In this document: one piece after another, positions 6,819 through 55,264 of the stretch
Position numbering within the stretch: the first letter of the stretch is position 1
Layout of the letters: each line of letters begins with the position of its first letter
Source: Phoebastria nigripes
Taxonomy: Eukaryota; Chordata; Aves; Procellariiformes; Diomedeidae
DNA: 64,000 nt
Reading direction: 5' to 3'
Assembly: GCA_035582835.1 (NCBI GenBank)
Contig: JAYKAV010003432.1
Location: 1,853,710-1,917,709 of the forward strand
Notes under the pieces: model-generated
The model's input: only the letters and a program-made list of their open reading frames with translations
What the model was told of the DNA's origin: nothing
Database searches by the model: none
Made by a program: the position numbers and the translations under genes

Positions 6819-6873
6819 NNNNNNNNNNNNNNNNNNNNNNNNNNNNNNNNNNNNNNNNNNNNNNNNNNNNNNN
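6819..6873. other. Assembly gap (55 Ns)
   Basis: A run of 55 Ns lies immediately after the minisatellite in very GC-rich sequence. The size is probably a placeholder, and the missing sequence is likely more of the GC-rich repeat or intron. Frames that read across it are not real. Confidence 0.98.
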
Positions 6874-6945: not shown

Positions 6946-7058
6946 CTGAAGTAGTAGACATCGCTCTTGCCGGCGCTGAGGCCCGACTTGCGGATCACCT
7001 CTTCCTTCTTCCAGCCCGGGGGCAGCGCGGGGCAGTCCATCCTGCCCTGCTTCTCCAT
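6946..7058 (-). CDS. MBD2: Methyl-CpG-binding domain protein 2, coding exon 1 (5' part of gene)
   Basis: MBD2 binds methylated CpG and recruits the NuRD deacetylase-remodelling complex in the nucleus. The exon encodes 37 residues from ATG at 7058. They start MEKQGRMDCPALPPGWKK and end at the SDVYYF strand of the MBD fold, the diagnostic first half of the MBD2 domain; MBD3 differs at several of these positions. It ends in phase 2 at a clear donor (CAG|GTACGTG on the minus strand). The rest of the gene is beyond the left edge. The upstream frame has no ATG before an in-frame TAG at 7385-7383 and would read poly-Arg and poly-Leu, so this is the only sensible AUG start. The product would be like the short mammalian MBD2b form, without the long Gly/Arg-rich N terminus of MBD2a. 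Confidence 0.93.
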
Positions 7059-22800: not shown

Positions 22801-25800
22801 TCTAACAGCTTGTAAGATTGTAATGCTTTGTCCCATTTGTTTCGATATTCAGGAAGATACATAAAAGGAATAATTTTACTAGGGACTTCCTTAATTATCC
22901 CTTCTCCACGGTATCTAGATTGTGTAAAAAACAGATATTGAATTCACATTTATGAATTGGAAAAATAAGTTATACAATAATAAGCATCTAGCAGTTGGGG
23001 ATGCCGGACTATAATGAGGTAAAGCACACGAATGTGATTGCACTTGANGGACTGACTAAAATTCAAGTAGTAATAAAAATGATTATTCTGTAACCGATTT
23101 TTGAGACCATTACATTCTTGACACCATACATTTTAAGTGAATTATTTGTGAGCTATTCGATAGGAACCTGCTTTAAATATATGCAATTCATCTATTTATT
23201 TATTTTTTCTATATAGATACTTCCAATCCATTTTGACACTGATTGCAAATCTTCTCACTATTTATGAACTAGTACATTCCGGCACTTCTCCAACTTTTGT
23301 TCATAACCTTCTGAGGAGTTCAAGGGAAGGTTCACAGAGGGGAAGAGGGGCCTCTCACAAGGAAATAGGAGACTCCTTTAATGCTGGGAACTGCTCACTA
23401 ATACTGATAAGTTCTCACGCCTAGTTCCTGGAGAAACTGTGAATCACTACAGTAAGCACTCACAGACAGCAGTTAAATGCAAAGGTGAAGGACGCTGTGT
23501 GACAACAGATAAGCTCAAAGGAGACTATGCTTGCAAACAGTTTAAGAAACATNAAATCAGATTTACAGACCCTGATGATGCATAAGTCAGAAAGAGCAAA
23601 GATAGCCAAGTTCAAACCCAAACACAGAGGCCCTGTAAAATCATGGGTCTGTTTCTTCACTCTGCAACTCTTGTCACCACTTACTGCCTTGGTGGAGTGA
23701 GCGCAGTGTAGGTGTCTAAGACTACTCCAGAAACTCACTTCTCCGCTAACTACAGTGGGTCCGATGGTGATGGAAAACATTTTAATCCCTACTCAAAAAC
23801 AGCGAACGTAAGCTGTGGCAGGAGCAGTTAAAACCAGCGTATGAGTATTTGGATACACCCTTTACTTCCGTAACTCCCGTGAACTTATGTTTACCAATCT
23901 CCTAAGCAGCTCTCGCCTGCATCCTGTAATATCTTCTCTCCTAAACTCAGTGTAAGTTGTTAATCAGGAGGACTTCTTCTAGGCAAGGCTTCTGAAAGAC
24001 ACAGTTGCTAGAATAAAAGAAAGGGCACACTTGTGAAAAATCTCAGTTTCCAGTTTTTACAGTGGATTATTGAGAACACTGGAAAGAGAGGAAGTAAGCC
24101 TGGTAAAGACCATTTGGATCACCAAATCTACTCTATCTTAGACAAACTGAAATACATACCTCATTGTCTTTCTTGAGCTTAGGGGACGTAATTCCAAACG
24201 AAATCCTATTCAGCCTTGAACAATCACCCTAATGCTCCCCTGAACTTTGCTGAAAAATATTTCACCTGACTGAAGCAAGGATCTCTATTGCTTTTCACTA
24301 CCAGATCCCATACTGATTTCTTTTAGCAAGTAAAGCAAACTGTTAATACTCCTGCCTATTAAAAAAGAAACTGGCATTTGTGATACGCGGTTAATAAATA
24401 TTCTATGTCAAACTGAAAATGGGAACAGTTATACTTTTGCTCCTAGAAACAGCTAGTATTCCTTCACAAAAGACACACTAGGGACCAGTACTGCTTGTTA
24501 ACGTGACAGAGATTTGTACAAGAATAAATGAATGAAAGATTCTGGCTCCCTGTACCAAATGGCAGAAAGCACGATGCTGCTTCTCCTAACTGCAAAGGAC
24601 TTGCTATATACAGATCTGAGCACAACTGAAAATGGCTTCATGCCTGATTGAGACTATAGCATATCTTTTTTTCTCCACAGAAAAGAGTCAGGCACTTTCT
24701 TATGAATTCTAAGCAACCAGACTCTCACTCCTTCACATCCACCTGTATTGAAATAAGATCTGAAATACAGTAATAATGCCACATACAAAGTATGCAAATT
24801 CTTATTAAGATAACAGTACTTTTAACATATTCTAATGAAATATTACAGCTATTTTCCATTATAATTGAGTAATTATTCTGTAATACTAGTGATTTAGCAT
24901 TGTCTTCTGTAATTAATACCTTCTTTGCTCAAACCTTCAGAAATAATTAGAAAACCACGCAAGACTTTTGGATTTAGAACACCACTAATCACAAACATCT
25001 CATCATATTGAGAACAAAAAAGAATCAGATGCAAATTTTCTCTACTGCCTATCTGTCAAGAGTGACATTTAATATAATTTAATACCCATTAGGCATTTTA
25101 ATTAAAAAAAAAAAAAAAAAGAGAGAGAGAGAGGGGCTAAGGACATCTTGCAAGTGTCCTCTTTTCCTCCGCTTTTGCACACTTCTCTTCAGTGAGATTT
25201 TTTTTTCTTTCCCCTGGTTTAAGGAGCTGAATCAGCTTGGTAAACAATCAGCTGGGTGCCACAGCCACCATAGATAAGAAGCAGGATTGCAGAGCCAGGA
25301 GAGGGGTAGGGAAAAGGAGAGGAGGAATGTAAAGAGTAGAGCCAATTCTATCAGTGACAGGAAGCTGTGAGATCAGCTTAGTCTGCCTCGCCCAACTCCA
25401 CCCTTCGGGCCAAATCTAACTGCTTAACAACAGCACAAAATTCATCGCTCAAGAGAAGGAAGGACAGATGAAGTTGCTGCTCCAGAGATTATATGACCTT
25501 CTTATTCTCAGAACAGTTAATTCAATTTCGGGTACCAGAAAGAAAAAGGTACAAAGGACAGATAAGGTAGAGCGAGAGTGTAAGCACGTCTGCATGTGTA
25601 TCAGTCACTTCACGAGTATGAAGGGGTGAAAAGCAAAGCCCAGCTGGTAAGATGTAATGGCTTGAATAGAATATTCCACCAGGAAGAGTCACTGACTTCA
25701 AGTCAAAACTGTGACTCCATATCTACTTATTCCATATTAGTGTTATATAGTATTTAATTTTCATAGCATATTTGAAAATTGCTTGGGGAAATCCAACTCT

Positions 25801-26272
25801 TGTATTCCAGCCCTACTGCTGACCCAGTGTAGCTACAGCGCAAAATCTTCTCTACAGCTAACAAAACTAAACTTACCACTTTCATGAAGGACAGAACATG
25901 GTTTAACTTTTCCATTTCAATCTTGGGTGTCGCTGTTCAAAAAAGATGTTGTTATTCATTACAGTGACAAACAAAATGTAAATACTTACATATTTCCTGC
26001 ATACTCTTTCGAAGGCTTTGAAGAAACTGTAACATTTTTCTCCAAGTAGAAAAAGGAAAAATAAAAACTTAGCAGTTGATAAAGAGTTGTTAACTAATTT
26101 TTAAAGGAAAACAGTTTTAAATACTTTCTGGAAGAAAATATAAAAAGAACTTTATAAACAATATTAACTAATATTTTCTTACTGAAACTTTTATCACTCT
26201 CCATCCTGAAGTATCTTGACTGTATGATAAAATTTTTTCTGAGACTTCATCCACAATTTTCTTATAGTCCAT
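19889..26272 (-). CDS. STARD6: StAR-related lipid transfer domain protein 6
   Basis: STARD6 is a small soluble START-domain protein of the StarD4/5/6 group that binds sterol; in mammals it is expressed mainly in germ cells. Six minus-strand coding exons, all with GT-AG junctions in frame, give 210 residues (human 220): 26272-26183, 26039-25990, 22914-22788, 21648-21531, 20459-20366, 20042-19889. The start MDYKKIVDEV and the segment SQDTSGWRVIKVS match the family N terminus. VRGYNNPCGYVCSP and the final LPTTLINLITETRAGLKG helix are typical of the C-terminal START fold. The start follows an acceptor at 26277, so the 5' untranslated region is on at least one separate exon (27511 upward). Introns are AT-rich with simple repeats and no other genes. 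Confidence 0.95.
25104..25132. repeat. (A)n(GA)n simple repeat
   Basis: A run of 17 A is followed by six GA units, in a STARD6 intron. No adjoining transposon was recognised. Confidence 0.9.
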
Positions 26273-28986: not shown

Positions 28987-29064
28987 ATGAGTGAAGATTC
29001 TAATAGAAACCTGGATAAAAACCATGAAAAGCTCAATAAAAGAAAGCAGTATCTGCTCTCCTGA
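28987..29064 (+). promoter_or_regulatory. Overlapping upstream ORF at the C18orf54 start
   Basis: In the exon beginning at 28974 the first ATG (28987) has A at -3 and opens a 25-residue frame ([16 protein letters not shown]...) that stops at 29064. It overlaps the main coding frame, which starts at ATG 29024, in a different register. In the main frame a TGA sits at 28988-28990, so the coding frame cannot extend upstream within this exon. Either this is an inhibitory upstream ORF or a base is missing from the assembly between 28987 and 29064. Confidence 0.45.
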
Positions 29065-32000
29065 TTCAACAATATCTTCTCTTTTAACAAGTTATAGCAT
29101 TGACAGCAATAATCCATACTCAGACAGTTTGATTCACTACAAGGACAAGCTTTACAGCTCTGCATCTGAGGCTCTGGAGGCTTATATTGAAGATTTTAAT
29201 CTAAGTCTCACATCTTCAGAAATAAGCACTGGAAAAATCTGCATATGTCAAAGCACTCCCAAACAAGTTGAGTTTTCAAAGCATCGTGCCAAAGAAAAAC
29301 ATGGTATGTCTTCTGCAAATATGTCTTTTAATAAGTTTTGGTGTTTGTTATTTGTTTGTTCGTTGTTTTTTTTTTTTTTATTGCCAATGGTATTGCAACT
29401 CCTTGTCTCACACCAGGTGTGTTTTGTTGAAGCAATATTCCCTGCACAACTGCTTGCAAGTCTTTATGGCATAGTAAATGATGCTTGGTCACGGCTAGCA
29501 ATATTTGTCATTCTCTGTAATGCTTTTTTGTAAATGCTTGGTGGATTGGTGAGAATTCATGACCATGCTCGTAGATGCAATAATAAATTCCAGCATATGG
29601 AATAGAAAGTGTATTTTCTATATGTGAATATATGCTAAAGACAGTGTAAATCATTGCTTAAACCTGAGTCTTGAAAAAAATCTCAGTTTCCTTTCCAGAG
29701 TAAGTAACATCAGAATCTAATTAATTGAAGGAGTTCCCTTAAACACTGCTTTGTCTTAGAACAAAATTTGCCCCTTATCCATTGATTTTTATGGAATGTA
29801 CTTTTGGGTCTGAAGTCTAACCCAACAGGGTAACGTATATGGATTTGAANTGGCTTTTGTCATTATTAGTTAGCTTGAATAAATAAATACTTAATTGATT
29901 ATATGAACTTTTATGACAAGATCTAGAGTAGATAACCGTGCTTGAGCTAATTTATACTGCAAATGCTTTGTCCATTACATCTAAAATAACAAAGTCCTAA
30001 GTATAGGCAAACTTTGTACCTGAAAAAAGATGCTTGCCTGGGTTGCATTGGTATGGACAGTTATGGTAACATACTGTATTATTCAGGGCTTTTTTTTCTT
30101 CACCATAGCCTATAACCTTCCTCTAGCTTCACACCTTTCCTTTCTTTCTCTTATCAAGACAGCTGGTTTTTAGCTGTGTTTAGCTTATGGCTTATATTTT
30201 TCTAGTACAAACCATCTTCTACTTAAGTTTAACTGACTTCCCAAATAAAAATAAGCATTCTGATTATCACTAAAAATGAGAAAGTTTTCTATGAAAGATG
30301 TCATCTGCTCATATTTTACTCTGAAATTTCTCTGTTGCTGTTCTTTGCAGAAGTCTCATTAGCTCCATTCACATATTAGCTAGTCTGCATGTATGTTTTG
30401 TATGTTATAATAGTCTGTAATATACAGATTTCACTTACTGATATTATAGTGAAAGTGAGAAAAAATAACTTCCAGGTAGTAGCTGAGGAAAACCTATTTT
30501 TGTGAATCAAAGTGCTTCATAGTTTCAGTAAAAAAAAAAAAAAGGATTTAATGCTACAATTTTTCCCTGAAAAACTGCCAAGTCAAATCGTATGCAGTAT
30601 GTAAGTGTCTGTAGAATCATAAAATGGTCTATAGGCCCATTATCTGGCTACTTGCCTTGCAAGCTATTGCTTTTAGCCATCCTTTTCACTAGTAAATGTG
30701 CTCAACTTCAGTATGGGGGAAACCATCCCTAACATTACTGTGTGGAGGAAGTGTNGGTACTAGGACTGAAATACTAAGGACATATCTGCAAAATATACAA
30801 TTCTGAATGTGCAACTAAAAATGGACTGTAGAATGTTGAAATCTTGTTTCTCTTAAATAAAAAATTAAAGAAAATACTCAAAGCTGTAAATGTTGTGTAC
30901 TATGAAAGGAAGGGTAACTTTTGACTAGTAAGGTTTATATCAAGATTCTGATTAGAAACGGAACTGCTCTTGCAAGAACGGTAATTCAGGACGCCCTGGT
31001 AAAGAATATATTTCAGCTTTAAATTATTACTTCATGTTAGATATTTACAAATGTATCATTTTGGTATGCTTGAAGTTTAGCAATTAATGTAAAATATCTT
31101 TGTTTTTCAGCATTGGACGATTTTAATCAGCACATAGGACTGGGTTCTCTTGCTTCACCCTGTAGAAGGCAAACTGAGTGTGACCCAGACTTGATTAGTC
31201 TTGCGACGGATGATCTGTTAGCATTTCCAGCAGATGGATCACTGCCCTTTGTCCAGCATACTCCTTTTAAATCAAGGCATCAAAGTAGTGAGTGGAACAG
31301 GCGGTCACTTAAAACATCCTTCTGCCCTTACCAAACCTCATCCCTCGATACTGAAAGCGGTTTCAGTCTCCAGGAGAATGGGAAAGCTGTTGCTCACCAG
31401 AATCCACACACAGACTTCAGCAAAAAGAAATGCAATGTGTATACATCTGATAGGTATGATTCTGTCTCCTGTAAAGGAAGTTCGAGACNCTTGTCGTTTG
31501 AAGAGAACTCTAACACTTTTCCTGTTAAGAATTATCCAAGGTGGCTTACCAGTCAGAAGTCTGACTTAAGTGTATCAGGAATAAGTAGTATTCCCAATTT
31601 TCACTACCCAGTCTGGCTTAAGAGTTACAACCTTTTTTCTGATTCAACTGAAGAAAATGATGGTCAAAATTTTAATATACAAGGCAAAGCTTCCTCTTCA
31701 CAAACCTCTGAGATCCTGAAAAAAAGACACTCTGTAGATAAAGACAGTTCTAATTTTTTTGAACAAAACAGTTGCCTGGATCTGAGAGGTGATAACAAAG
31801 TAGAAGAAAGTTACAACTATGACAATCCAGATGCATGCTTCCAATTTGATAACTCATTTTCAAGACACACCAAAAAGCCATTCAGAGGTAACTATATTTC
31901 ATATAATTTGTTTTTTTAATTTTGGGGGTATGTGTATAAGGACATGTACATTTTTTAAACCAACACTCTAGCCGTGTTGGTCTGACTGCACTGTACAGTA

Positions 32001-35000
32001 GATTTATTCACGTCCATCTTTGACAAATGACTCAAAGCACTTACTAGTAGTTGACTAAGTTAAACGGCTTTTATACTGTAAGTTTTCATATATAAATCAA
32101 TATTTAAGCATTCCTTTTACAGCAAAGTATTTATTACAGTGGCATATTTAGTACCTTGCTGCAAGATAATGACAGTAATTCCATGAATATTTTAATAGAA
32201 TTTCAAGCATTAAATTAAATTACATGAAGTGTAACCTTGGGGGAGACAGATTCCTAAACATAGTGTAAATGAACCTGTCAAATTGGTAAGAAATACCATT
32301 TATCGTGAAGTCTTTTTCTCTACTTTACACAGGCCNCAGGAGATACTTGTAACCCACATACTTAGGCTATCCAGTGCCTTCAGTTTTGTAAAGACTTTCC
32401 CTAGGAATCTCATGTAGCTACTCTTTGCAGCAGGCCATCGCTCTTCAGAAGCAGGGAGGTCCTCCCATGGTGAAGCACCATCTTTGTATTATGAAATATC
32501 AGCAAGATTTGCTTTGATATGAGAGATTAACATTTCCAAATGTTAATTACCTTCAGTTCTGTCTAAGTTTATTCATTTAAAAAGAAAAATATTTTTTCTT
32601 TGTTATGCAAAGCATATATATTGATCTCTCCCTTTTTCCAAGAGGTTATATNAAAAAACGAAGTTAAAATGTTGTTTGTTGTGAATTCAAAGTGACAAAA
32701 TGCCATATATGCAAATGTCTGCAAATACCTTTCTAGTGTGTGTGCATGATGAACTTTAAATATAGGGTTATATCTTTTTTTACACACAAAATTTTACCAA
32801 TCACGAACAGGCTGGGTATAAAAAAATATATATGAGAATGTGTCTGTCATTTTGAGTGCTTATCTCAACCTATTTTTAAATGTGAGTCCTGTATGTGATT
32901 GTATATGTGATTTGCATGTATATGTTTGCATGATTTCTCTCCCAGGTGTCTGTAAAAGCAGCTATTAGAAAAACATGTACAAAATAATAAGAAAATTAAC
33001 CTAATAACTTACAATATTAATAAGTAATATGTAAAATTGTATTGTGAATTAATATTAATTATATTTCCTATAGCATGAAAGCAGATTAAAAACATTAAGT
33101 AATCTTGAATACTGCATATGATACTTGTTTTACCTAAATTAGGAAAAGAAATGCTTGATGACTATAAACTACTCTCCTGACTAGAACCTTGCAGATCCCA
33201 TTTGGTACTGATGATTTACATGCTATACTGCCATACCAAGATAACCAAAGGAGTTGTATTGGGGCTGTACTTTCTCCAAAATATTTCCAGTGCTAATTCA
33301 TCTGTAGTAATTTTCCTGGAGTATTACATAAAATTAAAAGTAATGTGGAAATAATGCCCTTGAAGAGGGTTGGACACATTGTGTCTTTGTTTTTTTTAGA
33401 AGACCAGCTTGAGCTACTTACCTTGAAGGCTGACAAAGGTCTAGAGAGTTCAGCTGAAGATTTGTCAAATACTCTGGAAAATGATGGCAGTCCTTCTACA
33501 ACAGATATACTAGGAGCAGAAAGATCATGGGAAAATGCTCCAGGTGCTTTGTAAGTAAACATATATTTTGGAATAATTTCTTCATGAAAATGCATAATGT
33601 ACTTAATTGCTTTTGTGTATAGATTATAAGTAAAGGTGATGTGGCATGTTACATAAAGAAAGGATTTACTATTAGATTTCTTGCTAGTGCTAAATGTTTG
33701 CTATTTCAAGGTCAGGATATTGGTGCACTGCTTTCCCTTTTTCATTGACTTGCAAAGAGTGCTATCAATATTACTCACTGTTGCCTTTTAATAATATCTT
33801 TGTATATCAATGATACATAAGAAATATTTATTTCAAGAGAAAAATCATTTAATGGAACTTAAATTGACATATTTACTAGTTTATGATTAATAGTTTATGA
33901 AAAACAAGTTAATAGTGTTTTAAATACTTGGGTTTTTTAACAAGTTAAAAAAAGTGGTGCGGCCTTGGGAAGTTTTGGAACAGTCTGAAAGTGAAATTTC
34001 AGTTGTTCAGGAACTGAAAGGTTATTTCACAGAATCAAAGAATAGTAAAAATCAATACTAGAACTTCCTATGGTTTCCTACAGTTTTTAAGAAGCTGCTA
34101 CGTGTATGTGGTTCTGGGTGTTGTCTTTACCCTAGAAGATTTTGAACTATTGGTTAATTTTGGCAATATTTAACAGGTGAGTAAAAGTCTCAAACTGCAC
34201 ATTCCTGCAGGTGATAATAGAAACAATACTATTCATGCTCCCATTGAGAGAGAGGCTAATAATCTAGTCTCCTGCTAGCCACCAGAATACCCACGTAGGA
34301 GAACATCCCTGGAAATCAGGCTTCATTAATACCTGTTTCTATGAGACTACTAGCTTTGAATTAAAATACCTTAGAGACAGTAGAAGAATTAGAGGTCAGT
34401 AAGCAGAAGGTAACTATTTTTCTTTAGGTGTTGAATACTAATGGAGGAGTACCAGGTGTAAGAAAAACACTCATGTGTAATAAATTATAGCTAAGAAGTC
34501 CTTACCTTGCCTTTTTTGTTTAGTTGATTTTTGTGGCTATTCAGGTTTTGGTTATACTGGCAAAACTGGAAAAAATAGTTGTGTGTTTCTCACGCATACA
34601 CCAAGGTGCTGACAGGACTACTCAGTGCCCCCTTGGTGTTGCATTGTTGCAATATATCTGGTTTCATTATAATGACTACATCCTAAAACAATTCTTTTAG
34701 TTTATAAACCTGTTGTTATTCTCCATTGCATGTTTAATGTTGGTTTAGCAAATCACCAGTGCCTGTGTGCTNTGAGGACATGGAGAATGCTCTACCATTC
34801 CCCAAGGCAGATATCATACATAAGTTCTTGGAAGACTGTTTAAATGACAAAAATAAGGTCAGTAAAACTGAGTATTTATTTCTGAGACTGCCCAAAATAT
34901 GTAAGGCTGGTAAATATTAGAATGGGGAATACCTGTAAACTGATTTTCCTTCTTCCATAATATATAAAGTAGAAAGTCATCATGCTCAAATATGACTAAA

Positions 35001-38000
35001 CTACTGCAGTTAGAATTCATACAGTTATTAAATCCTATAATCTAACCCTTGGTCACAATTATGATTAAGAAAGCATCTAACTATAAAATGCTTTGCTTAA
35101 TAATAGTTTGACTTTTACACTCATGTTTTGTTTAAATAATAATTTTCCTGCCTCGAGTAAAGGAAGACTTTTTTTTTTTTGCTACTGATGTATTAAATAC
35201 TACTAATTTCCTAGCCTGGCTGATGTACTGTTGGGTATGAATCAAGTTCAAGAGGTAAGTTAAGTAATACGTTTCTTATTATTTATGCTCTTGTACTAGA
35301 ATTGGATCACGGATTGAATTTACTCTTTTGATTATTCATTATTTTATTCTCATTCTTACATATTAATCACCTTCTTGGCAGTCTTAATATTGTTTAGTCT
35401 TTCATTTTGATCATATAAACCCTTTATCCTTTTCTCAGCTAGGGAGATGAGCACTGAGCCCAGTATTCTAGTTGAAAGGCATACTATTAATTTATGTACT
35501 GGTGTGTTTCCTTTACTTTCCCTATTGTCCTTGAATCTTAACTGCTCTGTTTTCCCATCTTGTAGTAAACAGAGCATTACCCTTTAAGTTTTTCCACTGT
35601 GACACATGCTTCTGTTTCCCTAAGGAGTTAATTGACACAGAACCTAACCATGTGCATGAGTAATTCAAATTATTCTGTCTGAATGGTGCTTCACTGTATT
35701 TCATCCTTCAGTCTTCCCGTTCTCTTGGTTCTGCTAGATCATCAGACATTTCTAGACATAAGTATTTCTAGATTATCCACAAATTTTTGTCACCTTGAGT
35801 TAATTTGCTTTTTTGATTATAGAATGAGCAGATATCATATAGATGCTAATTATATGAATGAATCTGTTTATCATTAAGGAATTTTACTTGCTCTGTCAGT
35901 TAGGAAATGCTGAAACATGTTCCAGCACTGCTGTCACAGCATTACAAGGACTGACTTAATATAGTTGAATTATGACTGTCTTAATATTCTTGAATTATTT
36001 TACACAAGCCAGGGCTGAGGCCTTTCTGTGTTGTTTCACGTCTTCCTAACAATGTGTGTATTTACAGTGATTTCACTGACCATACAGTGGCATAAATTAA
36101 GATGAACCAGTGTAGCATCATGCATGTACAATTTATAAACAGACCTTTAAAGAATAGGTAGAGGGAAACAGTCATACAAATCAGCCTTTAACTTGTTTCA
36201 GGGAAACTTCAAAAGTTGTTTGTTTTATGTGCACTGCAGTATACTGCAAGATCAACAAATTCTTTGGGTTTTGGTTTAGGAAAATATTCTTTCTGGAGGT
36301 AATCATCACAGGCCCCTTGAAGCTTTGAAGCTAATGTTGTTTAAACTTCAAGCAATTCAGGGAAGTTTGAGCGAGAATGAAACTGCTGAGCAAAAGGAAG
36401 AGTTTGAAGAAGTGAGTCAGTTTCCTTATGTTGTATCTTGTCAAAACCTATGTGCTGTGTCCATTTCTGAGAGAAGTTGTTAGTCCTTTTATAGACTTGG
36501 TTTCCAGTCATCTTAGAGCATTGCCAGCAGATTCAATCCAGTTTGCATCAGGAGCATATGCTCAAGACCGCTGTGCCTTAAATCCCTTGTGTCTTGTTGC
36601 TGCTGTTGCAAATTGGAGGCTGTGTGCTACGTTATACTGCAGCCTCTCCTGTTTGCAGGGGCACTGTGTGGCAGGTCAGTAACTCGACAGTGGCCTCAGC
36701 NGTGCTACAGAAAGCAGTACTTGTAAGCCAGGAGATGGCGACATTTCAGGCAATCCTGCCCGAAGAGAGCAGACNGTGCTCTCCTCTGCTGCTCTAGCAA
36801 TAGCTGTGTTCTGGAAAAGTGGTCTTCTGATAATATCCCCGTTAATTCTAGGCTTTCGGGAGCATGTACCAAATTTTTAAAAAGCCAGACATTCTGAAAT
36901 GCTCTATCCTTGTCTCCTTTGGCATCAGTGAATTGGCACTTTTGTTTCAAAATGATTTCATAGACTTATATTATCTCTTTTTACCTCTTTCATAATGTTG
37001 CTTGCATACAGTTCTTAAACTCTATGTCCTATACTCAGTAGTGAATGAAATGCTGCATATATACCTGGATCAGGCAGGCTGGGGGAATGGGCCAACAGGA
37101 ACCTCCTGAAATTCAACAGGGACAAATGCAAGGCCTTGCACCTGGGAAGGAAGAAACCCCTGCAGCCATACAGGCTAGGGACCGCCTGGCTAGGGAACTG
37201 CTCTGTTGAAAATGCCCAAGAGGTCTTGGTAGGTACAAGCTGAACATGAGTTGTGTGCCCTGGTAGGAAAGGAGGAACAGCAGGGTCTGGTGTATATGGA
37301 CAGAAGCACAGTCAATGGATCAAGAGAAATGATTGTCCCTCTTTATCCCCCAGCACTTATTAGACCACATCTATAATACCGCATCCAGGTTTAGGCCCCT
37401 CACTTCAGGAGAGACATCAATAAGCTGGTGGAGGGGCACCTAGGTGGTTGGGGGCTACAGCACTTGTTTATNGGGGGAGCTGACTGAACTGGGCTTGTTC
37501 AGGCTAGAGAAGAAGAAGTTTTGGGGGACCTAATAGAAGTCTTCCTGCACCTATGAGGAGGGTATCAAGAAGATGGAGCCAGGGTCTTCATAGTGGTACA
37601 TGGTAGAAGGATAAGAAACAGGCATAAATTGAAACAGGAGGTTCACACTGGACGTTGGGAGAAACTTTTTAACCCTGAAGGCAGCCAAGCACTGGAACAA
37701 GTTGTTCAAGAGAGGTTGTGCAGTCTCCATCCTTGGAGGTTTTCAGGATTTGACTGGATAAAGCCCTGAGCCTGCTGTAACCTTGTAGCTGCCTCTGCTT
37801 TGAGCAGGAGCCCACCTCCTGAGGTCCCTCCCAACCTGAATTACTTTATGATGCTATAAAGTTGCTGTCAATACTTTCCAATGCAGTGTGCTAGAAAAAT
37901 TCCATGTTTTCTGTCTTATTCAGCTACTTTTCCTTCCCTCAGTTAACAATTTTTTTTTTTAAGCTTTCTGAAAAAGCAGAGGCTGAATTAAAACTGTGTG

Positions 38001-39041
38001 ACAGTGAGATAATCCCTCTTACTGATTCTATTCAGAAGTAAGTGACNATAGATTTTCTGACTTTTCACTGCTTTCAGAAAGTGCAGAAAAGGAATGATAA
38101 ATTAGCTGGGAGTTGTCATGTGATCTGAAAACTTTGTTAAGAATAAGCCAGTAGTGAATAATTAAAAACATATCAGTTCATGGAGCAGAGAAATATCTAA
38201 TGAATGGTTGCTGAGATGTACTCTGTAAATAAACATTTGTATTCCATCTATATCAATAGATTAATTATTGCTACACATAGATGGACTTTAAAATAGTCAC
38301 ACTTGGAGAAGTTTGTAATATGGGACAAAATATTTTCTTTTTTTTCACTACAGTGGAGAAAATAATTGCTAGAAAACGTATTTCATTAATGAAATCAACA
38401 GAGTCCTACTGAACAGTTATAAGTGACTAAAGAAATAATAAGTTTGAGAAAAGGCAGAATGGAAAACAGGGGTTTATTATGTAGAACATTTGTTTGAACA
38501 AAACTCAGTGTTGCAGTATAGTTTTATACTGTAATATAAAATTAAAAGATTTTTTAATTTAAAAAAATACAGTACCTTTCAGTATTGATATGCTATTTTA
38601 TAACGTAATGCTTTGCAGTGTTTAACATCCTGTGTTAAACATCCATTCCATAATAATTTAATAGAAACTGTGTGTTTGTGTGAGCACCTGTATTTGAGAA
38701 GATGTATTTACAATTTCAGTTCCAAAAAGTCTTTTATCTTTTTAAAAAAACATCATAGTGTATTTTATAATCTCTAAAACAGAGTAAGTGGAACAGTTAG
38801 ACATAGAGATGTAAACTGTATATAGTACCATTCAAACTGTTAAGCTGTTTGTAAGAAATCAACATCATTTTGTGTTAAATGTAAACAGTAATTTATACAC
38901 TGTTAAAGTCTTCATTTTTCCTAATCTAGGGCTTTACACCATTTGGCACGTCTTAAAAGTCTTATTGAAGATAACAGTAACCAACAAGAGCAGACCGATG
39001 ATCATGAAGAAGATAAACAAGAAAAAAAGAATGATCTGTGA
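29024..39041 (+). CDS. C18orf54: C18orf54 / lung adenoma susceptibility 2 homologue
   Basis: A vertebrate protein of poorly known function, identified by sequence ([33 protein letters not shown]) and by position between STARD6 and the DYNAP site. Coding exons: 29024-29303 (exon from 28974), 31111-31887, 33400-33550, 34749-34857, 36280-36411, 37964-38037, 38930-39041. Joined this way they give 544 residues in frame. A further conserved-looking 40-base exon at 35215-35254 breaks the frame if included and is listed separately. No transmembrane segment or known catalytic motif is seen. The large second coding exon is Ser-rich and probably disordered; the C-terminal part is helical and charged, ending in a Glu/Lys-rich tail. 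The start ATG 29024 has ACC before it, a good context. Single Ns fall in codons at 31489 and 34772. One intron contains a CR1 insertion. Confidence 0.88.
35213..35254 (+). pseudogene. C18orf54: C18orf54 exon with a damaged splice acceptor
   Basis: AGC CTG GCT GAT GTA CTG and onward reads [14 protein letters not shown], followed by a good donor (GAG|GTAAGT). This fits the protein between the exons ending 34857 and starting 36280, both phase 0, and as 42 bases (35213-35254) it would keep the frame. But the only AG available as acceptor is the exon's own first two bases (TTTCCTAG|CCTGG). Splicing there leaves 40 bases, shifts the frame and gives an immediate stop (CCT GGC TGA). The ancestral intron-terminal AG appears to be missing. 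Skipping the exon restores the frame. Confidence 0.6.
37064..37865 (+). mobile_element. CR1 LINE, 3' fragment, plus strand
   Basis: Recognisable CR1 3' sequence: GGGCCAACAGGAACCTCCTG, CAAATGCAAGGCCTTGCACC, GAGCTGACTGAACTGGGC, AACAGGAGGTTCACACTGGA and CCTGAGGTCCCTCCCAACCT, ending in a degenerate ATGATGCTATAAAG tail near 37865. It is 5'-truncated, diverged and carries an N at 37472, and lies inside a C18orf54 intron in sense orientation. No open reading frame survives. Confidence 0.9.
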
Positions 39042-45608: not shown

Positions 45609-48600
45609 ATGGATAACCAGGCATTTGAAATGCATGGAGAGAGCATACAAAGTTCTTCAAAAGGAAAAGAGTGGCCAAAGAAAGAGGTACCAGTCATTTT
45701 CTTTTACAGCGCTATCAAAACATTATTAATAGTCAGTCTGAAGATTAAACCCTTATTTTGTAATATGACCTAATCCTATAGTATTAAGAAGGTCCTGAAG
45801 AAAATAAAAGCTCTAAAGGGCTTCAATTGGTAAGGTCCTAAAATACATAACGCCATGTGCACTAGCTAGGATTTGAACTGTGAGACATAATTCCCTGGCC
45901 CCACTTAAGTTAATTGCTAAATTCTTTATCCTCTAAATACTGGACAAAGTAATTATCTTTGGAGGATTCCCCATTGATTTTAACAGAAAGAGCTACTTAA
46001 AAGCTCATCTTGTGGTAATGTTTAGTATCTCTACCGAGTTACACATTAGANTACTGTTTTTATCTTTTCTTTTTTTTTTTCCCTTGAGAAAAGTAATTCT
46101 CTGTAATTTTCCCATTAAAGTTTTTGCTTCTTGGGATTTGAATTAACTTCATGCAGTCAGAGTTGGCATATCGCTCATAAGCCNTTACATTTGTTTGCAG
46201 TCAGCACAGTGCTGCTTCTTGGCTATAAATGTACCAAGGCTAGTGATTTCCTCACAACATAACTCACTCCACACAGTTGCGCTGAGGTTGAATGTTCTGT
46301 ATTAGTTATTATTATGTAATATGTACAGCATTCTTTTGACTTTAAAAATAATTATTGAATTGGTGCCACTGCTGTGAAAATGNTGTAAATTAAAGGTCCT
46401 TCAAATCTGGAAAACGGGGATTTCAAATGCATTTAACTATAAAGCCTTGTTCTCTGNTGAGACTCTGTGGTCTGAGTACTACTGTTGTGATATTTAATTG
46501 AACACAAGCTTTAAAAAGGGAGTCATTTAAACTGAAGAAAAGATTATTACTGAATAGAATAGGGTGATATTTTGAGAACTTTTCTGCTGGCAAGAGAAAT
46601 GTATTTGTAAAGAGCTTTTGTCAAATAGATTCATGAAAAAAGTCTTTTTGTTAAAATCAGCAAAAAATCTTCAATTTTTCATTTCTGATTGTCCAGCTTA
46701 AGAAATCAATATTCATAGCTCATTTTCAGGCACTCACCATCTGAAAAATCAGGCTTTTAAAGGTAGATCAAGCTGTGTACCCAGAATCAGTAGAGAGTTT
46801 TAAAATTTGGGCCAGAGAATGCAGTCTCTATTCATCTGAAGCTGCGACTTCAGCAGCAAAAATGATTAAGGGACAGGAAACACTGAATATCCTCACCAAG
46901 GTGATGCTTCATGGTGCCAGAAGTGCCTTGGCCTTCTATAAAGAACTTGTGTGCTTCTGCATGCCCAGCTGCTTCTCCCCTTCACCCTCCTCCAGAGGCC
47001 TGAATGTCCACAAAGGAAATTTTCAGTAAAGAAATGATGCCCAGAGCAGTTAGTACAGATGAAATTTCCCCATTCTGGCCTGTCTTCTCCACTGCCAGGG
47101 AGCTGGGCCATGTGTGATGTGACGTAAATTAGAGGCAGCATTTCTGCCCCAGAGATGAAGGTTTGCCATGAGTTGATGCTACAGGTCTTCAGTGTTTTGT
47201 GATATGGATTAGAAACAGCAATGAAAAAATCTTTAAGTGTTTGTAAGACCCCAGGATGATGAAGACGTGCTTTTACTTGATGAAATAATGAAAGGACAGC
47301 AACAATCTGATAACATGCTCTATAAGGTTTCCCTGTACTGGGCCCAGTAATTTGGCTATACCTGTGTTTCTGAAAGGCATACTGTTTTGATTACAAAAGA
47401 ACTATCACAAACTTTCTCCTGTGTGTTAGATCTAATAAAGCTTTCTTTTTTGTTTGGGGGGGGCTTTTTATTAATTTCAGGAAAGAAAGGGCAGCTGGTC
47501 CCTCATGAAAGTCTTTCTAGTTTGTCTATTGGCCTGTGTTATCACCACCGCAATAGGAGTGCTGGCCCTGTCCTTGGTCTATGTAAAGACCACTGCCTTT
47601 ATGAAAGAGATGGATATTAAAGACAATGGTGCATCTTCCCCAAAACCAGATGAAAAAAGTGTGGATATCAAATTCCAGTTCCTGAATCATCTGGGGAAAT
47701 CAAAGGTAAATTGTTCATCTTGTGCAATAATATTCTAGCATCATATATAGAAGTTTAATGAATTAATTTCACCTAACTCTTTTTTTAAGCATTAAGTGAT
47801 CAGTCTAAACCTGTTATCCAGGCTTCTTTTGTAATCCATGGGGAAAGACACAAACTTCCTGACAGCGTTTCACTCCAGTTCATAACCCATGTTGGAAGTG
47901 GTATGGATCTCTGGAGTGCCTCTTGGAGAGCTAAATAATTGCTCCAACAAATTAGGCTTGCAAGACAAGGCAACCATTTTATGTGTGATTCTGAAATTAC
48001 AGAGTATGAAATTCTGAAAAACAAAACCAGAAAGATCAAATTTTAATGTAAGCTGAGTAGCACAGTAACCTTTTTGTTCTTAGGACTGGATTCAAACAAA
48101 TTGTTATGTTGCAAGAAAAAATGAACTNCATGATCTTTGTTTCAGTGAGCTAAAATGAATTAATTGACAATGTAATGAAGCCCTAGGAATTATGTAGTTT
48201 TTGTTTAGGTGTATTTTGATACTTACAGAAACATATCCTTTGAGCAAACTCTGAAGACATACTCCATCTTCTAATTATATCTGTATATAAAAAAATAATT
48301 CCTGATTAATTTTTGCTTTTCGGCAAAAGAGGGAAAAGGATAGATTAGATGGTAGGGCACTTTAAACTGACAACAGCCATTCTGGTACTTTTTTATGTTA
48401 GATTTAACTATGTAATTAATTTTCAAACAAAAAATGTTTTTAAGAATGCAAACAAAAGTGTTTCAGAGGAGAGTAACCCTTTTAATATGCCCTTCCTCGG
48501 TGCAAGATGATTCTTTCAAGTACAAAACATGTTCTAGAGGCAGTACAAATATTGGGAAAGGAATAGTTTCAGGTGCAAATAGTTTGCAACCATAGAAATT

Positions 48601-51600
48601 CAGGAAAATGTCTTACTTGGGAAATGTTCTAAATGTTTTGAATCTAAAAGTTTAAGCATATATGTAACTGATTTCCCAAATCAAAGTCCAGAGTGACGTA
48701 AAAAGAGGAGGAGCAGATAATTTTGTTCTTGATATCACTATTTCTCTCGTTTGTAGAAACAATACTATTACATCACAACATGGGAAAGTATATAAATGAT
48801 TGTGAAAAGTGACTAAAATACATACAGAGAGAATCCTCACTGACAAAAGGAATAGGTCCCTTCAGTATTGCCCAGACCAAGAATTTTCTGAAGTATTTTT
48901 GGGTTGTTTGGTCACCACTGTCCACAATTAATACAATTCTCCACTCACTAACTTTACAGGTACATAACTACCCAGGTGGTGAAATTCAGTGGGCAAGGTT
49001 CAGGAAGGATGTGAATGAATATCAAAGTGATGAAGAAATGGAATTTGGAAAAAGTATCAATAACCATCGCTCCAAAATGACTTTTGGAACCTTGCGGATC
49101 AAAAGCAAAGGGCTTCGGGCTCCCCATTGGCATTTTAATGCCAATGAACACGGCTACCTGCTACAGGTATTATCTGATTATTTCAGCTTTCCCAATTGGT
49201 TTTGCAGTTTAAAGCATCACGTATATGTAGAAGATGTACATATGTAAAAAAAATTACATATACATTATATACAAATGTTAACAGGTTATAAAAGCAAAAT
49301 TACCATCGATCGATGTATGACATTAGTTTTCTTGCTTGAAATAACATTTTCAAATGGAGATGCTTGAAATAGGCTGTTTAGTGTTACTTGCAAGAGTACC
49401 AAACACCTGTAGCTTCCAATGAAGTATAAAAACTGAGGTCAGAGGAGACTTTGGATATCTGAAAGTTACAGAATTTTATGTACTTATCCAAGTGCTTACA
49501 ATGATTAAAGTAATTATATTAGAGAACCATCGCAGAATCACAGAGATGAAGGACTGTTAAGTTTTTCTTAAGAAAGCCTTTGGCTCCATCCCCTGTATTG
49601 ATGCAGGATAAGAACACCTAAAGCACATCTGACAGTTTTGTTCANTTTTTAAAAAATTTTCAACAAAGGAGCTATTACAAAATCAAAAAATAGTTGTCTC
49701 CCATGTTTCATCACACAAACCATTAGAATGTTTGTACTGGTACACAAACCACATTTTTGTTTATTGCAAAAAAAAAAAATCCTAATTTCTCCTTGTTTAG
49801 CTACATTGGCTGTGGAGACCCTCAGATCATCTTTCTTTCTCACAAGTTTTTACACATGGAAGACTGTTTTGTTCCCATACGGTCTTCTCTTTCCTAGACC
49901 AAATACACCTCCATTCCCCCCCCCCCCCCCCAAATCTTTGAAAAGGTTTGCCATATCTCACCTGAGTGTCAAATTTCAAATCTGTAAAAATAATGAAAAA
50001 GAGAGAAACAGAAACTCACTGTGAGGAATTCAAGATAGCATATTAATTTGAAAAAAAAAAAGATCTTTCTTTGGAAGCATAGGTACTTAGACATATCTCA
50101 ATTATTAATTAATTTCTAAGAATAATTATTCATATTTTGATCAGCTTAGAACTGAACAGCTCCAGCTGGATGGGGGATCCTCCTTGGAGTAAGGCATTCC
50201 GCAAATACCTGGTCCNCTCTCTAGCAGTTTTTGGTCAAAGATGACTCCTTTATAGCTGTTCACAGCCTCTTTAATAAGAAATGGTTTAAGTATGAGCAAT
50301 GTGTGTTTGTCATGTGTTCCTTAAACCTTTTGTCACTTAAAATGCTATTCTGGATTTAAGTTCACAAAGGCTTGTTCGAGAGCGCATCAGGATCTGTTTT
50401 TTTCCTAACAGCCTTCCGGTTATTTGAATTACTGATTTGCTGCATATGGATTAAATGAGAAAACTTTCATTATGATTGTCAAGTTCTGATTATGTTACAG
50501 GGCACTGCCTGGATTGGAGTAATCGGTGCAGATGACAGNGTGGTTACCACATACAATGTCACGGCTGGTCAAGTGATCTTCTTCCCTAGAAACACTGTGC
50601 ATTGGGTAAAGAATGTAGGATCAGAAGACTGTGTGTTCTTGCTGTTTTTTACAACACATGAAGAACTTCAGACCTTGGATGTAGATGATGCATTTTTCTC
50701 TACCCCAGAGGATATAGCAGCTAGAGCATTGAAGGTCTGTATGATAGGATAGCCAGCCTCTATCTAGTCTTCTACACATTAACATGGCAGTCCAGGCTCT
50801 TTCTATATTTCTTGGAGAGAATCCTCCCTACCTCAGCTGTTCTCTTTAGTCCCATCAATGCGGAAGGATGTACACATGTCCTTTGTGTAACACTGTGCCA
50901 CCCTGTGTGTTCCTTTATACACAAAGAGAAATAAATGATGATGCTCTCTCCAAGAAACTTTTTCTCCTCCACTCTTCACATTTCTCCCCAGTTCATGGAG
51001 GATCCTCCATATTTCCGAGGGTGGAAGGGAAAATAACGTAGTGAAGCCCAAAGCTAATTTCCCAATAGCCCCTTGATGAATTCTGTGGTATGAGAAGGTC
51101 TCATAGGAAACTATAGATAAGTCCATCTCCTTGTTAAAACAGATCTTATTTGAACTAACTAGTTGGCGATATCCCTTGAGCAAGAATACGGCCGCAGAGT
51201 TTCTGCTGAGTCTGAGGAATTTGCATGTTCAAACCACAGAATTGTGATAGACCTTCCCACCCTGAACCAGTTTGGTGGGAGACGGATCGAGTTTCCCTTC
51301 TGCTCCAAATCTCTGTGGTAACTGAGAAGTAAGGGCAGAGCAAAGGAGCAAAATAGAGTATTGACAGGGCTAGGCAGTTAAAGAGATGAGCTATGTCCAC
51401 AAGGCAGAATTCATCTACCACCAGGTACTAAGGTGGGATATTCAGTGAAGCAAATTTTTAATTCTGCAGTTTGCTGTGTGTATCTGTCAANTTAATATGC
51501 ATTGTGTGTCCCGCAGCCACAAAGTGGAGTTAACTTCATCAGAACATTCAAGAAACAAGTAGAAGATCAAGCAATTAACCTCCCACCAAACTTAGATGAG

Positions 51601-54600
51601 CTTGTACAAAATGCCACCTATGTGCAGTCTCCAGACAACCTTGTATGGCAGTACTTCTACAATCTCAAAGGTATACATCTAGGAACTTTGTATGTAAGAG
51701 CTCTCCGTGTTTCTAGAGGGGGAGAGGAGGGGATCTGTAATTGATTCACTGAAACAGGAGTTAAAAAGTATATAGAGAAATGATAAGAATTTAAGGAGAT
51801 AAAATGAAAAATATATTGGTAATACACCTAATTACTGCCCTTTGAAGATGTATAACCTGATTCTTATCTCAAAGTATTTTACCCTTTTGATTTTAATGTT
51901 TCTGTCTGCAACAGTAGATATGAGAGCAGAATGCCAGTAAGCAGCAGGGCATGAACTAAATACTTCCCAGCTCAAGGTTCTCTACTGATGTGTGTAACCA
52001 GGACTGGTGTGTTCTCTGCTACAGTTAAGCTAAGCAATAACCTAAACCTAAACTTTTCATTCACAAATTAAAATCTAATAGGCCAGGAAGCCCTGCAGCA
52101 GATTAGCTGGAGAGTGACTGGTGCTGAGCTTCTCAGAATATCTTGCGTTTGCATATGAAATGTCAATGAATAAACACCCTAACATATACCTAATTATGTC
52201 CTCCCTTTTCTTTTACAAATACAACTTCATAAACAGCATTGAACCATATTCACTGTTTGGTTTATCAACAATTGCATTAAGCAACCCTCTGTACAGCCTG
52301 GATCTAGTGATTATCAGTGAGCACCTAATAAACATAGATGGCAAAACTTAATTCCAAGTAGTATTGTCCATTCAAAAAGCTATAAAAAGCAAATACAGGT
52401 CCAGAGCTCCACACACAGCTGATGGAGGTCATGAGAAATAGATGCGTGACCAAAATCTCTGCACTTGGACCAAAATGTTCTTCTGCATTGGCAGTACTTT
52501 ACAAAATATTGTGACACACAATCAGTGCCATAAAGGTTAACATGAATTAATATACTGAAAGTTAGCATGTTCTTTAAGTGTATTGTTACTGATAGCAATT
52601 TGGGATGGAAAAAATCTAGTCAGAGTTTTTCATTATGATTATCATAGAAAAGTACAGTAAAGGAGATTGCATAGTGTCTAGTGCGTGAAGGATAGATAAG
52701 CTAAATGGGCTTTCTTTTTGGTTCCAGAGGCTTATAAATTCGAGGCCTCAAGTTTAGTATGTAGTAATGACTTGAAGTTGGCCAATACGCTAACAAGCAG
52801 TGTTAACCAAACCTTGTTGGAAATGCTCCATCAAAAAATGCTCCACCAAAAAAGCTGTCTTTGTTTTAGGGTCAGCAGAATATCCTTTTCCAGGAGGAAT
52901 CTTCCAGTGGGCTCGCTACCGCAGAAATGGCACTGGACTAAACGAAACAGAAAAAATTTTTAGTGAGTCACTGAACAAGGTACGTGCTTTCAATTGGATA
53001 CTGTAGCTATTTAAACATAAGGCATAGTATGCAATTTGTGTGGGTTCATCACTGCTTTGTCATGTATAACAGGGATATAACAAACTTGGATGGTTTTCTG
53101 AACATTTCTGTTCTGCTTTTCAGCATGAAAATACCCTTACCTTAGCAACTCTCAGGATATTCAGCAACGGACTGGGGCAGCCTCATTTCCACTTCAATGC
53201 TAATGAGATGGGTTATGTCATTAGCGGCTGTGGACAGGTAATTTGTTACATCGGTGAGGGATAAGTCAGTGGAGTTTTGGCTGTATAACATTTACAGCCC
53301 TAATAACCGATTCCCAGCCCTGATTAATAATACTACAATTAGTAGCATTACAAAACTTTCAGTGTCCACACTTTCCTTCTCCATACAAAATTTGGATCTG
53401 TTACATTTGTGGAAGCTTGTCTAGTCAAAGTGGAGTTAGACAAAGAGCAGAATTTGTCCATCTTGTGAAGTTGTTTAGCAAAATCACACATGCTTATTAC
53501 AGGAATCCCCACTCTCCTGAATGCTGGGAGTACAAAATAAAAAGGCAATACTTTTGATTTAGCGCCTCTGAGGAACAGATAAATAGAGAAAATTTAGCGA
53601 GTATTAAGATTTAGAGTATAGGATTTTATTATGTTTTTTACTCAATGCAAATTTGAAGTGCAAAAGTATTTGAGATGGAATGATGAGACTCCATAATGTG
53701 AAGGCTTACCACATTCTTACGCAGGAATTTGCCTAGGACCCCTCTACCTTTTTGGAGTCTCAGTGAAAGCACTGATGCTACACTAGCTGATTTCAGTGCG
53801 GTGCTGGTACCGTTACTGTGTATTTATCCAATAATAGCACACTGAAAATTGTTGTTGTTGCATATCGCTGCTTTACTTGTAATAGGTTGGAGTTATTCTC
53901 TCATCTGGAGTCACNGCCAACTTCAACATTGGCATTGGAGATGTCATATTTTTCCCTGTTGGAACCCAACATTATATCAAGAGCGTATGTGAAGAGGATT
54001 TGTTTTTGATTCTAGCCTACAGTACAGGGAACCAGGTGAGAATTCATATGGGCAAGGGGAGTAAAAAAATGTTCAACTGTACATAATCTTATGCTTTTCT
54101 CACGCACATAAGCTTTATGCTTTGGTGCACACCTTTCAAAAGAAATTCTAAGAATACGTCAAGTACATTGACACCAGAAGGGAATGTGCACTGTCAATGG
54201 TTGGCATGCAACACCTATTAAAACTCTGTACACAGAAACAGGAGGTGGGGAAGACAAAGAAAAGGTCTGTGGTAGGGTGTGACGTGCTCCTGTGTGTGTG
54301 CGCGCAAGAGAGATGGAATTCAGATTGTGTTTGCGCATGAGGTACTGCTGGTGTTTAAGAGACAGGGCTTGTCCTTGAGCAGACTGGAGAGGCTGCGGGT
54401 CTTTACAAGCTGAGCGTCCACACAAAGGAGAGGTAATGGCTTTAAACTCAAAGAGGGNAGATTTAGACTATATATAAGGAAGAAATGTTTCACGCTGAGG
54501 GTGGTGAAACACTGGCANAGGTTGCCCAGAGAGGTGGTAGATGCCCCATCCCTGGAAACATTCAAGGTCAGGTTGGACGGGGCTCTGAGCAACCTGATCT

Positions 54601-55060
54601 GGTTGAAGATGTCCCTGCCCACGGCAGGGGGGTTGGACTGGGTGGGCTTTAAAGGTCCCTTCTAACCCAAACTATTCTGTGATTCTATGATCTTCATAAG
54701 CCTTGAACAAGTCTATATCCTAGGAGCCAGAGCAAGGGTGTATTTATCTAAGGTTACACGTATCCAGTGACCTTGATAGCCCAGTGTAAGACTTGTCATT
54801 AGTTACATACTTTTATATTAATTCATTTTCATCTTGGATTTGAGGTGCACTTTAATATTCCATATTACTAATATTGTAAAAATGATCAGGTAGCTATGAT
54901 GATTCTTTTTAAAATATTGTCTTTTTCTTCATAGCTGGAAACTCTTCGTATGAATGACTACTTCCATGGAACAGCAGATCATATCCTTGCTCAGCTTTTT
55001 TTCAAGAAACAGGCTGAGTTTAAGAAGTTCCCGAAGGCTGCCAAAAAATTACGCAAATAA
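45609..55060 (+). CDS. Membrane-anchored bicupin (oxalate-decarboxylase/germin-like fold), at the DYNAP locus
   Basis: Nine coding exons, all GT-AG and in frame, give 465 residues: 45609-45686, 47481-47705, 48960-49166, 50501-50734, 51517-51670, 52870-52979, 53124-53237, 53886-54035, 54935-55060. Residues 1-35 are a short charged cytoplasmic tail and 36-60 a single transmembrane helix (KVFLVCLLACVITTAIGVL...). No cleavable signal is seen, so it is type II. Cupin 1 has RAPHWHFNANE (His157, His159, Glu164) and GQVIFFPRNTVHWVKN (His204). Cupin 2 has QPHFHFNANE (His357, His359, Glu364) and GDVIFFPVGTQHYIKS (His403). Each is a full three-His/one-Glu metal set. Sequons NVT (189), NAT (280) and NET (324) fit a lumenal or outer location. 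The tail is basic (KKFPKAAKKLRK). Enzyme activity is not shown by the sequence; a metal-binding oxidoreductase or decarboxylase, or a binding protein, are all possible. Exon 1 is the least certain part. Confidence 0.9.
49515..49960 (-). mobile_element. Ancient CR1/L3-like relic, minus strand, in a bicupin intron
   Basis: Reading the plus strand, CAGAATCACAGAGATGAAGG, CTCCATCCCCTGTATTGATG, CACATGGAAGACTGTTTTGT and GGTCTTCTCTTTCCTAGACC follow the order of an old CR1-group 3' region seen in antisense. It is strongly diverged. It sits between the exons of the first cupin domain and does not touch them. Confidence 0.5.
54395..54690 (+). mobile_element. CR1 LINE 3' end, plus strand
   Basis: A well-preserved CR1 3' end contains GAGGGTGGTGAAACACTGGC, GTTGCCCAGAGAGGTGGTAG, CATTCAAGGTCAGGTTGGAC and GGTTGGACTGGGTGGGCTTT, and finishes with the typical ATTCTGTGATTCTATGA repeats at 54674-54690. 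It is much younger than the relics at 44540 and 49515. It lies in the last intron of the bicupin gene, in sense orientation. The left boundary is approximate. Confidence 0.93.
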
Positions 55061-55258: not shown

Positions 55259-55264
55259 ATTAAA
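55259..55264 (+). terminator. Probable bicupin polyadenylation signal
   Basis: ATTAAA lies about 200 bases after the stop codon, in T-rich sequence, and is followed by TTGCCTTTTGCTCTG. No canonical AATAAA lies between the stop and this point. Confidence 0.5.

Follow-up and report, generated by a model that had tools for sequence, protein, structure and literature searches.

We analyzed a 64,000-nucleotide stretch of the genome of the bird Phoebastria nigripes (contig JAYKAV010003432.1, positions 1,853,710 to 1,917,709). This whole stretch is the window below, and positions count from its first letter. On the forward strand of the window, at 45609–55060, lies a gene for a protein with one transmembrane helix and two cupin domains (a bicupin). 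We propose that this gene is the avian orthologue of human DYNAP (dynactin-associated protein), a membrane protein linked to tumours in mammals, and that its product is a type II membrane protein with two metal sites; taken together, these claims are probably correct. The gene has nine coding exons, which join into 1398 nucleotides (465 amino acids plus the stop codon TAA) with the frame open throughout. All eight introns run from GT to AG, with phases 0, 0, 0, 0, 1, 0, 0, 0, and an in-frame TAA lies directly 5' of the ATG at 45609.

Exon 1 (45609–45686) holds the start codon and the predicted cytoplasmic N-terminus (amino acids 1–26). Exon 2 (47481–47705, amino acids 27–101) encodes the transmembrane segment, a stalk, and the first strand of cupin domain 1. 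The rest of domain 1 is in exon 3 (48960–49166), with the HWHFNANE ligands and Arg154, and exon 4 (50501–50734), with the fourth ligand in GQVIFFPRNTVH. Exon 5 (51517–51670) encodes the interdomain linker and the first strand of domain 2, and exon 6 (52870–52979) the N-terminal part of that domain. Its HFHFNANE ligands, with Gly354 and Phe358, are in exon 7 (53124–53237) and its fourth ligand, in GDVIFFPVGTQH, is in exon 8 (53886–54035). Exon 9 (54935–55060) encodes the C-terminal end and the stop codon, and ATTAAA follows at 55259. We dropped a tenth candidate (47790–47900), which is exon-like but breaks the frame. The last intron contains the end of what we take to be a CR1-like repeat (54478–54515). 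Two coding bases, at 50539 (in exon 4) and 53915, are ambiguous (N); one leaves serine or arginine (AGN) and the other is silent (ACN). The window has 56 isolated Ns, which may be masked heterozygous sites, and one 55-base run of Ns at 6819.

A single strongly hydrophobic stretch in the protein follows a basic N-terminus and matches the family CLLAC (Pfam PF15675; amino acids 32–60, E = 6.2e-15, 54.9 bits against a cut-off of 25). Cupin_1 (PF00190) matches two further stretches (5.3e-34, 117.4 bits against a cut-off of 22). In domain 1, HWHFNANE (amino acids 157–164) and the downstream motif fit HxHx4E and Gx5Px4H exactly, as do HFHFNANE (amino acids 357–364) and its downstream motif in domain 2. 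So all eight metal ligands are present, with three histidines and one glutamate in each domain. The two domains are 39% identical to each other (62/158, 123 bits; the maximum in 100 shuffles was 21.2 bits). The alignment of amino acids 96–458 to a profile made from four bacterial bicupins has a probability of 99.6%. Other Pfam families that matched the cupin part, namely Cupin_2 (1.2e-15) and Polysacc_synt_C (31.9 bits, just above its cut-off of 28.7), we read as cross-matches of the cupin fold, and likewise eight more families on the protein that were below or near noise.

The cupin repeat begins at amino acid 88 and exon 2 reaches amino acid 101, so exon 2 encodes the helix as well as the first 14 residues of domain 1, which ties the anchor and the cupins into one gene. 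Four N-glycosylation sequons (at amino acids 189, 280, 319, and 324) all lie C-terminal to the helix. Since basic residues precede the helix and the sequons follow it, the cupins should lie in the lumen or outside the cell.

The initial annotation described an intact vertebrate gene of nine in-frame exons, encoding a type II membrane protein with one transmembrane helix and two cupin domains that carry these motifs. The splice sites, the phases, and the open frame bear out the gene; the hydrophobic stretch with its CLLAC match bears out the single helix; and the exact motifs and the Cupin_1 score bear out the cupins. The intact gene is also the only copy that we found. A search of the bird's own 1.2 Gb genome with the protein gave nine matches at E ≤ 0.01, all at this locus. 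With CLLAC, just 1 of 18 matches (E ≤ 10) was above the cut-off, again at this locus (4e-13; the next best was 0.3). An exon-by-exon search found Cupin_1 at this locus only, which is a lower bound because only the best candidates were scored.

The CLLAC domain and the gene order identify the gene as avian DYNAP. Human DYNAP (here and below, the human query sequences are provisional copies rather than database records) matches CLLAC (1.8e-17) and has no cupin in a Pfam scan, and its helix is identical to the bird's at 21 of 28 positions. When this sequence was compared to the window, the only match at E ≤ 1 was on exon 2 (47487–47597, 4.4e-9). As a control, we shuffled the five human queries; only shuffled DYNAP matched the window, twice, with E values of 0.29 and 0.38. 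The human gene order is given as DCC, MBD2, POLI, STARD6, C18orf54, C18orf26, RAB27B (PMC2967069), and C18orf26 is DYNAP (PMC8329785). The bird's order is the same from MBD2 to RAB27B, and the bicupin gene occupies the place of DYNAP.

Upstream of the bicupin gene, the start of the MBD domain of MBD2 is encoded at 6948–7040 on the reverse strand (MBD, 9.9e-11; 31/31 residues identical to human MBD2). The C-terminal exon of POLI, with two UBM stretches, is at 17848–18723 on the forward strand (1.3e-12); we named it from its domain and the gene order, not from an alignment to POLI. Exons of STARD6 (19907–26272, reverse strand) match the human protein in six pieces (the best at 8.8e-10 and the weakest at 0.34), and exons of C18orf54, also known as LAS2 (29024–38987, forward strand), match in five pieces (3.6e-15 to 0.059). 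Two large exons of C18orf54 had no match in Pfam. The START profile gave 13 matches in the genome, none of them on the window's contig (C1896); it missed the STARD6 exons in the window, yet pairwise tblastn found them. The contig continues past the window with five RAB27B-like exons, 52–61 kb from the window's end. Over 52 residues, the first of these exons agrees with human RAB27B at every position (100% identity), compared with 87% for a second set of RAB27-like exons, on contig C152.

DYNAP has been reported from birds before. Two papers from 2017 that deal with how birds lost DCC include DYNAP in this gene block, and they assign the block to the Z chromosome (PMC5327406, PMC5327424). According to the first, DYNAP is in the transcriptomes of all of the Galliformes examined and of some but not all Passeriformes; the gene is presumably transcribed in P. 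nigripes as well. In the same paper, the alligator orthologue served as the root of the rate trees (PMC5327406), which suggests that there is a crocodilian DYNAP too. The name and the gene block are the same, so the avian DYNAP in print is almost surely our bicupin gene. The main texts of both papers are free of the words "cupin" and "dynactin", and their passages on DYNAP do not appear to discuss the protein's architecture. In the open-access literature (which leaves aside subscription papers, preprints, supplements, and database annotation), we found no paper with both "cupin" and "DYNAP", and none that pairs cupin with dynactin-associated protein, C18orf26, or CLLAC. Nor did listings on vertebrate bicupins, on oxalate in chicken, on CLLAC, or on cupins of zebrafish, metazoans, or Gallus include a vertebrate bicupin; one entry concerns a "cupin-like polypeptide" of an oyster (PMC13129452). 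So the gene has already been named, and its bicupin ectodomain appears to be new to the literature that we searched. The initial annotation knew of no described function for a vertebrate member; it missed the DYNAP name, the published avian transcripts, and the human orthologue, which lacks the cupins and has been studied. The block is reported to be broken in a branch of the Galliformes and in the Passeriformes, and Z-linked in birds (PMC5327406, PMC5327424). In P. nigripes, MBD2-POLI-STARD6-C18orf54-DYNAP-RAB27B is intact (6948–38987 in the window for the first four, and beyond the window on C1896 for RAB27B), and the window is probably Z-linked.

Several points weigh against our proposal. 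The human DYNAP, MBD2, STARD6, C18orf54, and RAB27B sequences that we used as queries are provisional copies rather than database records; the DYNAP copy agrees with the published figures (210 amino acids, 22.5 kDa, a start of MVA, and 20 Ser/Thr among the final 38 residues). Human DYNAP has no match in the window beyond the helix region. One of the two 2017 papers states that a tblastn search for DYNAP in Galliformes and Passeriformes was negative (PMC5327424), contrary to the other (PMC5327406). The direction of change, mammalian loss or sauropsid gain of the cupins, is judged by parsimony only. And domain 1 lacks the lid glutamate of OxdC, so catalysis is not assured.

The closest proteins of known structure are OxdC chains, which are the best matches in the Protein Data Bank (PDB) for the whole protein (6e-19) and for each domain alone; 11S globulins are less similar. 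Relatives are abundant in bacteria. We looked for a close prokaryotic or viral source and rejected the idea: patterns built from the bird protein alone found no relatives in GTDB or IMG/VR, and an alignment-based search confirmed at least 563, of which the best 80 are 22–28% identical to the bird protein. We compared 81 relatives: 77 of the best 80 loci (three with short reading frames were dropped) and four of 55 plasmid records, these four being 22–25% identical to the bird protein in our alignment. Seven of the eight ligand columns are conserved in 81/81 relatives, and the first histidine in 80/81. (A Chloroflexia bicupin, L035, has glutamine in place of the first histidine of domain 1, within LQWH.) An arginine ahead of the motif and a tryptophan inside HxH are present in both domains of all 81, but these counts are biased, most of all for domain 1, because of the patterns used to fetch the 77 loci, which either demanded Arg and Trp of domain 1 or accepted Arg/Gly and Trp/Phe for domain 2. 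No such patterns were used to fetch the four plasmid loci, and these agree. In the bird protein, domain 1 has Arg154 and Trp158, and domain 2 has Gly354 and Phe358. The lid motif SE[DNG] is found in 40 of the 81 relatives and is absent from the bird protein.

We also built a tree of 86 domains, from 42 of the 81 relatives and the bird. The bird's two domains share a group of 13 (support 82) with the two entries for L035 and the first domains of ten relatives, and those relatives in the group whose lid sequence we inspected lack the SE motif. This hints that the bird's domains belong with the first domains of bicupins other than OxdC, and it is a hint only because the branches are long and the rooting is at the midpoint. 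Domain 1 of L035 joins the bird domains with a support of 100. In a tree of full-length proteins, the bird sits on a long branch (1.98) and has no useful placement. We considered that the bird's domains might be uniquely alike, as if from an internal duplication of their own. But their identity of 44.6% is within the range of the 81 prokaryotic proteins (median 37.0%, maximum 48.0%), so their likeness is not exceptional.

We propose that about 33 basic cytoplasmic residues, the CLLAC helix, and the stalk would carry an ectodomain of two cupins, either at the cell surface or in the lumen of the Golgi. Each cupin would hold one divalent metal ion with its three histidines and one glutamate, and we judge the binding of two metals to be quite likely. 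Domain 1 is the likely working site, perhaps for a reaction of a small carboxylate or an oxidoreductase reaction, because it keeps the substrate-binding arginine of oxalate-handling bicupins; the equivalent arginine of OxdC is implicated in substrate binding (PMC3585803). In our best reading, it is the only plausible catalytic site, with a complete set of ligands plus Arg154. Domain 2, which is ligand-complete but has Gly and Phe instead of Arg and Trp, would most likely be a structural or regulatory metal site. We put the chance of an enzymatic role at about even.

The leading alternative, which is compatible with our proposal for the gene, is that the ectodomain is not an enzyme but a metal-stabilized module for ligand binding or adhesion, like the seed-storage bicupins. 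Domain 2 lacks the Arg and the Trp that all 81 of the prokaryotic relatives have, there is no lid glutamate, the 11S globulins are (more weakly) similar, and human DYNAP does without cupins. However, a fold that served for binding alone would not need all eight ligands plus Arg154. We consider this alternative to be a serious one, with somewhat less than an even chance of being right.

How did the bird and human proteins come to differ? Human DYNAP is described as a type II protein of the Golgi and the plasma membrane, with its C-terminus outside; both the helix and a tail rich in Ser/Thr come from its last exon, and the protein is reported from oesophagus and spleen (PMC8329785). The bird protein does not share this tail: its C-terminus is cupin domain 2, with 1 Ser/Thr in the last 38 residues versus 20 in human. 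We take the tail as a derived human trait, not one that defines orthology. The human transmembrane exon begins in phase 0 about 8 residues ahead of the helix tryptophan (from the printed exon sizes and the query sequence), and the bird's, also in phase 0, begins 5 residues ahead of it. In the bird, exon 2 ends at the donor AAG|gtaaatt and seven cupin exons follow. If exon 2 is read past this donor, then the frame closes after ten more codons, with a stop at 47738; leaving the donor unused (47706–47738) would yield a short form without cupins that resembles the human layout. The simplest path between the two layouts would be the loss, in mammals, of the splice after the transmembrane exon. Since a short tail rich in Ser/Thr stands in their place in human DYNAP, the cupins were probably lost in mammals and the anchor kept: the cytoplasmic part and the helix would have been retained, and the ectodomain swapped for the tail.

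The cupins might instead have been gained in the sauropsid line, by fusion or transfer, which would also be compatible with DYNAP orthology, and cupin relatives are abundant in bacteria. But even the best 80 prokaryotic loci are just 22–28% identical and the bird gene has eight introns, which argues against a recent transfer, and losing exons is simpler than grafting seven of them. We think that a gain is unlikely.

A surface oxalate decarboxylase is less likely still, although OxdC chains are the best matches in the PDB and the protein has manganese-type ligands and Arg154. The bird protein scores 106.1 bits against TIGR03404, far short of the cut-off of 254.2; three of the four plasmid relatives pass (292, 365.5, and 554.5 bits) and the fourth, L012, fails (140.6 bits). 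The lid glutamate and two arginines are documented as important in OxdC and in its cousin, a fungal oxidase (PMC3585803). The bird protein has no SENS lid and so no counterpart of the proton donor Glu162, and of Arg92 and Arg270 it retains one, as Arg154, with Gly354 at the second site. Furthermore, the Trp96/Trp274 pair is represented by Trp158 and Phe358 (HFH replaces HWH in domain 2); in OxdC, W96F and W274F are reported to keep 0.08 and 0.20 of the wild-type efficiency (PMC8254039). In keeping with the missing lid, the best PDB match of domain 2 is 2uya (383 residues, versus 385 for 1j58), without the two-residue gap that 6tzp needs. The initial annotation likened the ligand set to that of oxalate decarboxylases and of plant storage or germin proteins, and envisioned a surface or lumenal bicupin that could be a metalloenzyme. 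The type II bicupin with complete ligand sets held up. The analogy to oxalate decarboxylase is weakened: the family score, the lid glutamate, the second arginine, and the tryptophan pair are all against it.

Finally, two neighboring genes, one DYNAP-like with the helix and a separate cupin gene downstream, are hardly credible, even though human DYNAP ends in its transmembrane exon and the frame past the bird donor is short (ending at 47738), because exon 2 enters the cupin repeat with 14 residues and splices in phase with exon 3, so the exons cannot be divided without cutting a domain, and exon 3's open frame has no ATG ahead of the cupin.

If our proposal is correct, then poorly understood human DYNAP gains an ancestry that its own sequence hides, in a metal-binding bicupin ectodomain. 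The "physiological function unknown" of DYNAP would become a testable question, which is what the bird ectodomain binds or converts. Bird DYNAP would be a vertebrate bicupin of the germin/OxdC type, and human DYNAP would clearly illustrate how the loss of a catalytic-looking domain can make a membrane protein of mammals. More speculatively, and we hold this as a tentative idea that may well be wrong, DYNAP could have begun, in amniotes or earlier, as a metalloenzyme of the cell surface or the Golgi; birds would still run the reaction at domain 1, and the Akt-promoting, transforming human DYNAP would be the left-over anchor and cytoplasmic tail, whose signalling was once coupled to a ligand or product of the ectodomain.

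Among known systems, OxdC of Bacillus subtilis (1j58/1uw8), with TIGR03404, shares with the bird protein the bicupin plan, three histidines and one glutamate in both domains, and the arginine of domain 1. The bird protein differs in its membrane anchor, in the missing lid glutamate, in Gly and Phe in domain 2, and in scoring far below the family's cut-off. The prokaryotic bicupins that are not OxdC (such as L012, L033, L039, L071, and L088) resemble the bird protein in having no SE-type lid in the sequences that we inspected, and L012 and a 247-amino-acid piece of L033 are also below the TIGR03404 cut-off. (L033 and L039 are from Chlamydiae bins, and among solved structures L039 is closest to that of the SLL1358 protein, 2vqa, at 9e-39.) Unlike the bird protein, they have Arg and Trp in both domains, and we saw no described function for them. 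Human DYNAP shares with the bird protein the CLLAC segment, the type II plan, the phase-0 transmembrane exon, and the gene's neighbors. But human DYNAP has 210 amino acids, with about 108 residues before the helix and a short ectodomain rich in Ser/Thr, whereas bird DYNAP has 465, with about 33 in the cytoplasm and a bicupin as its ectodomain.

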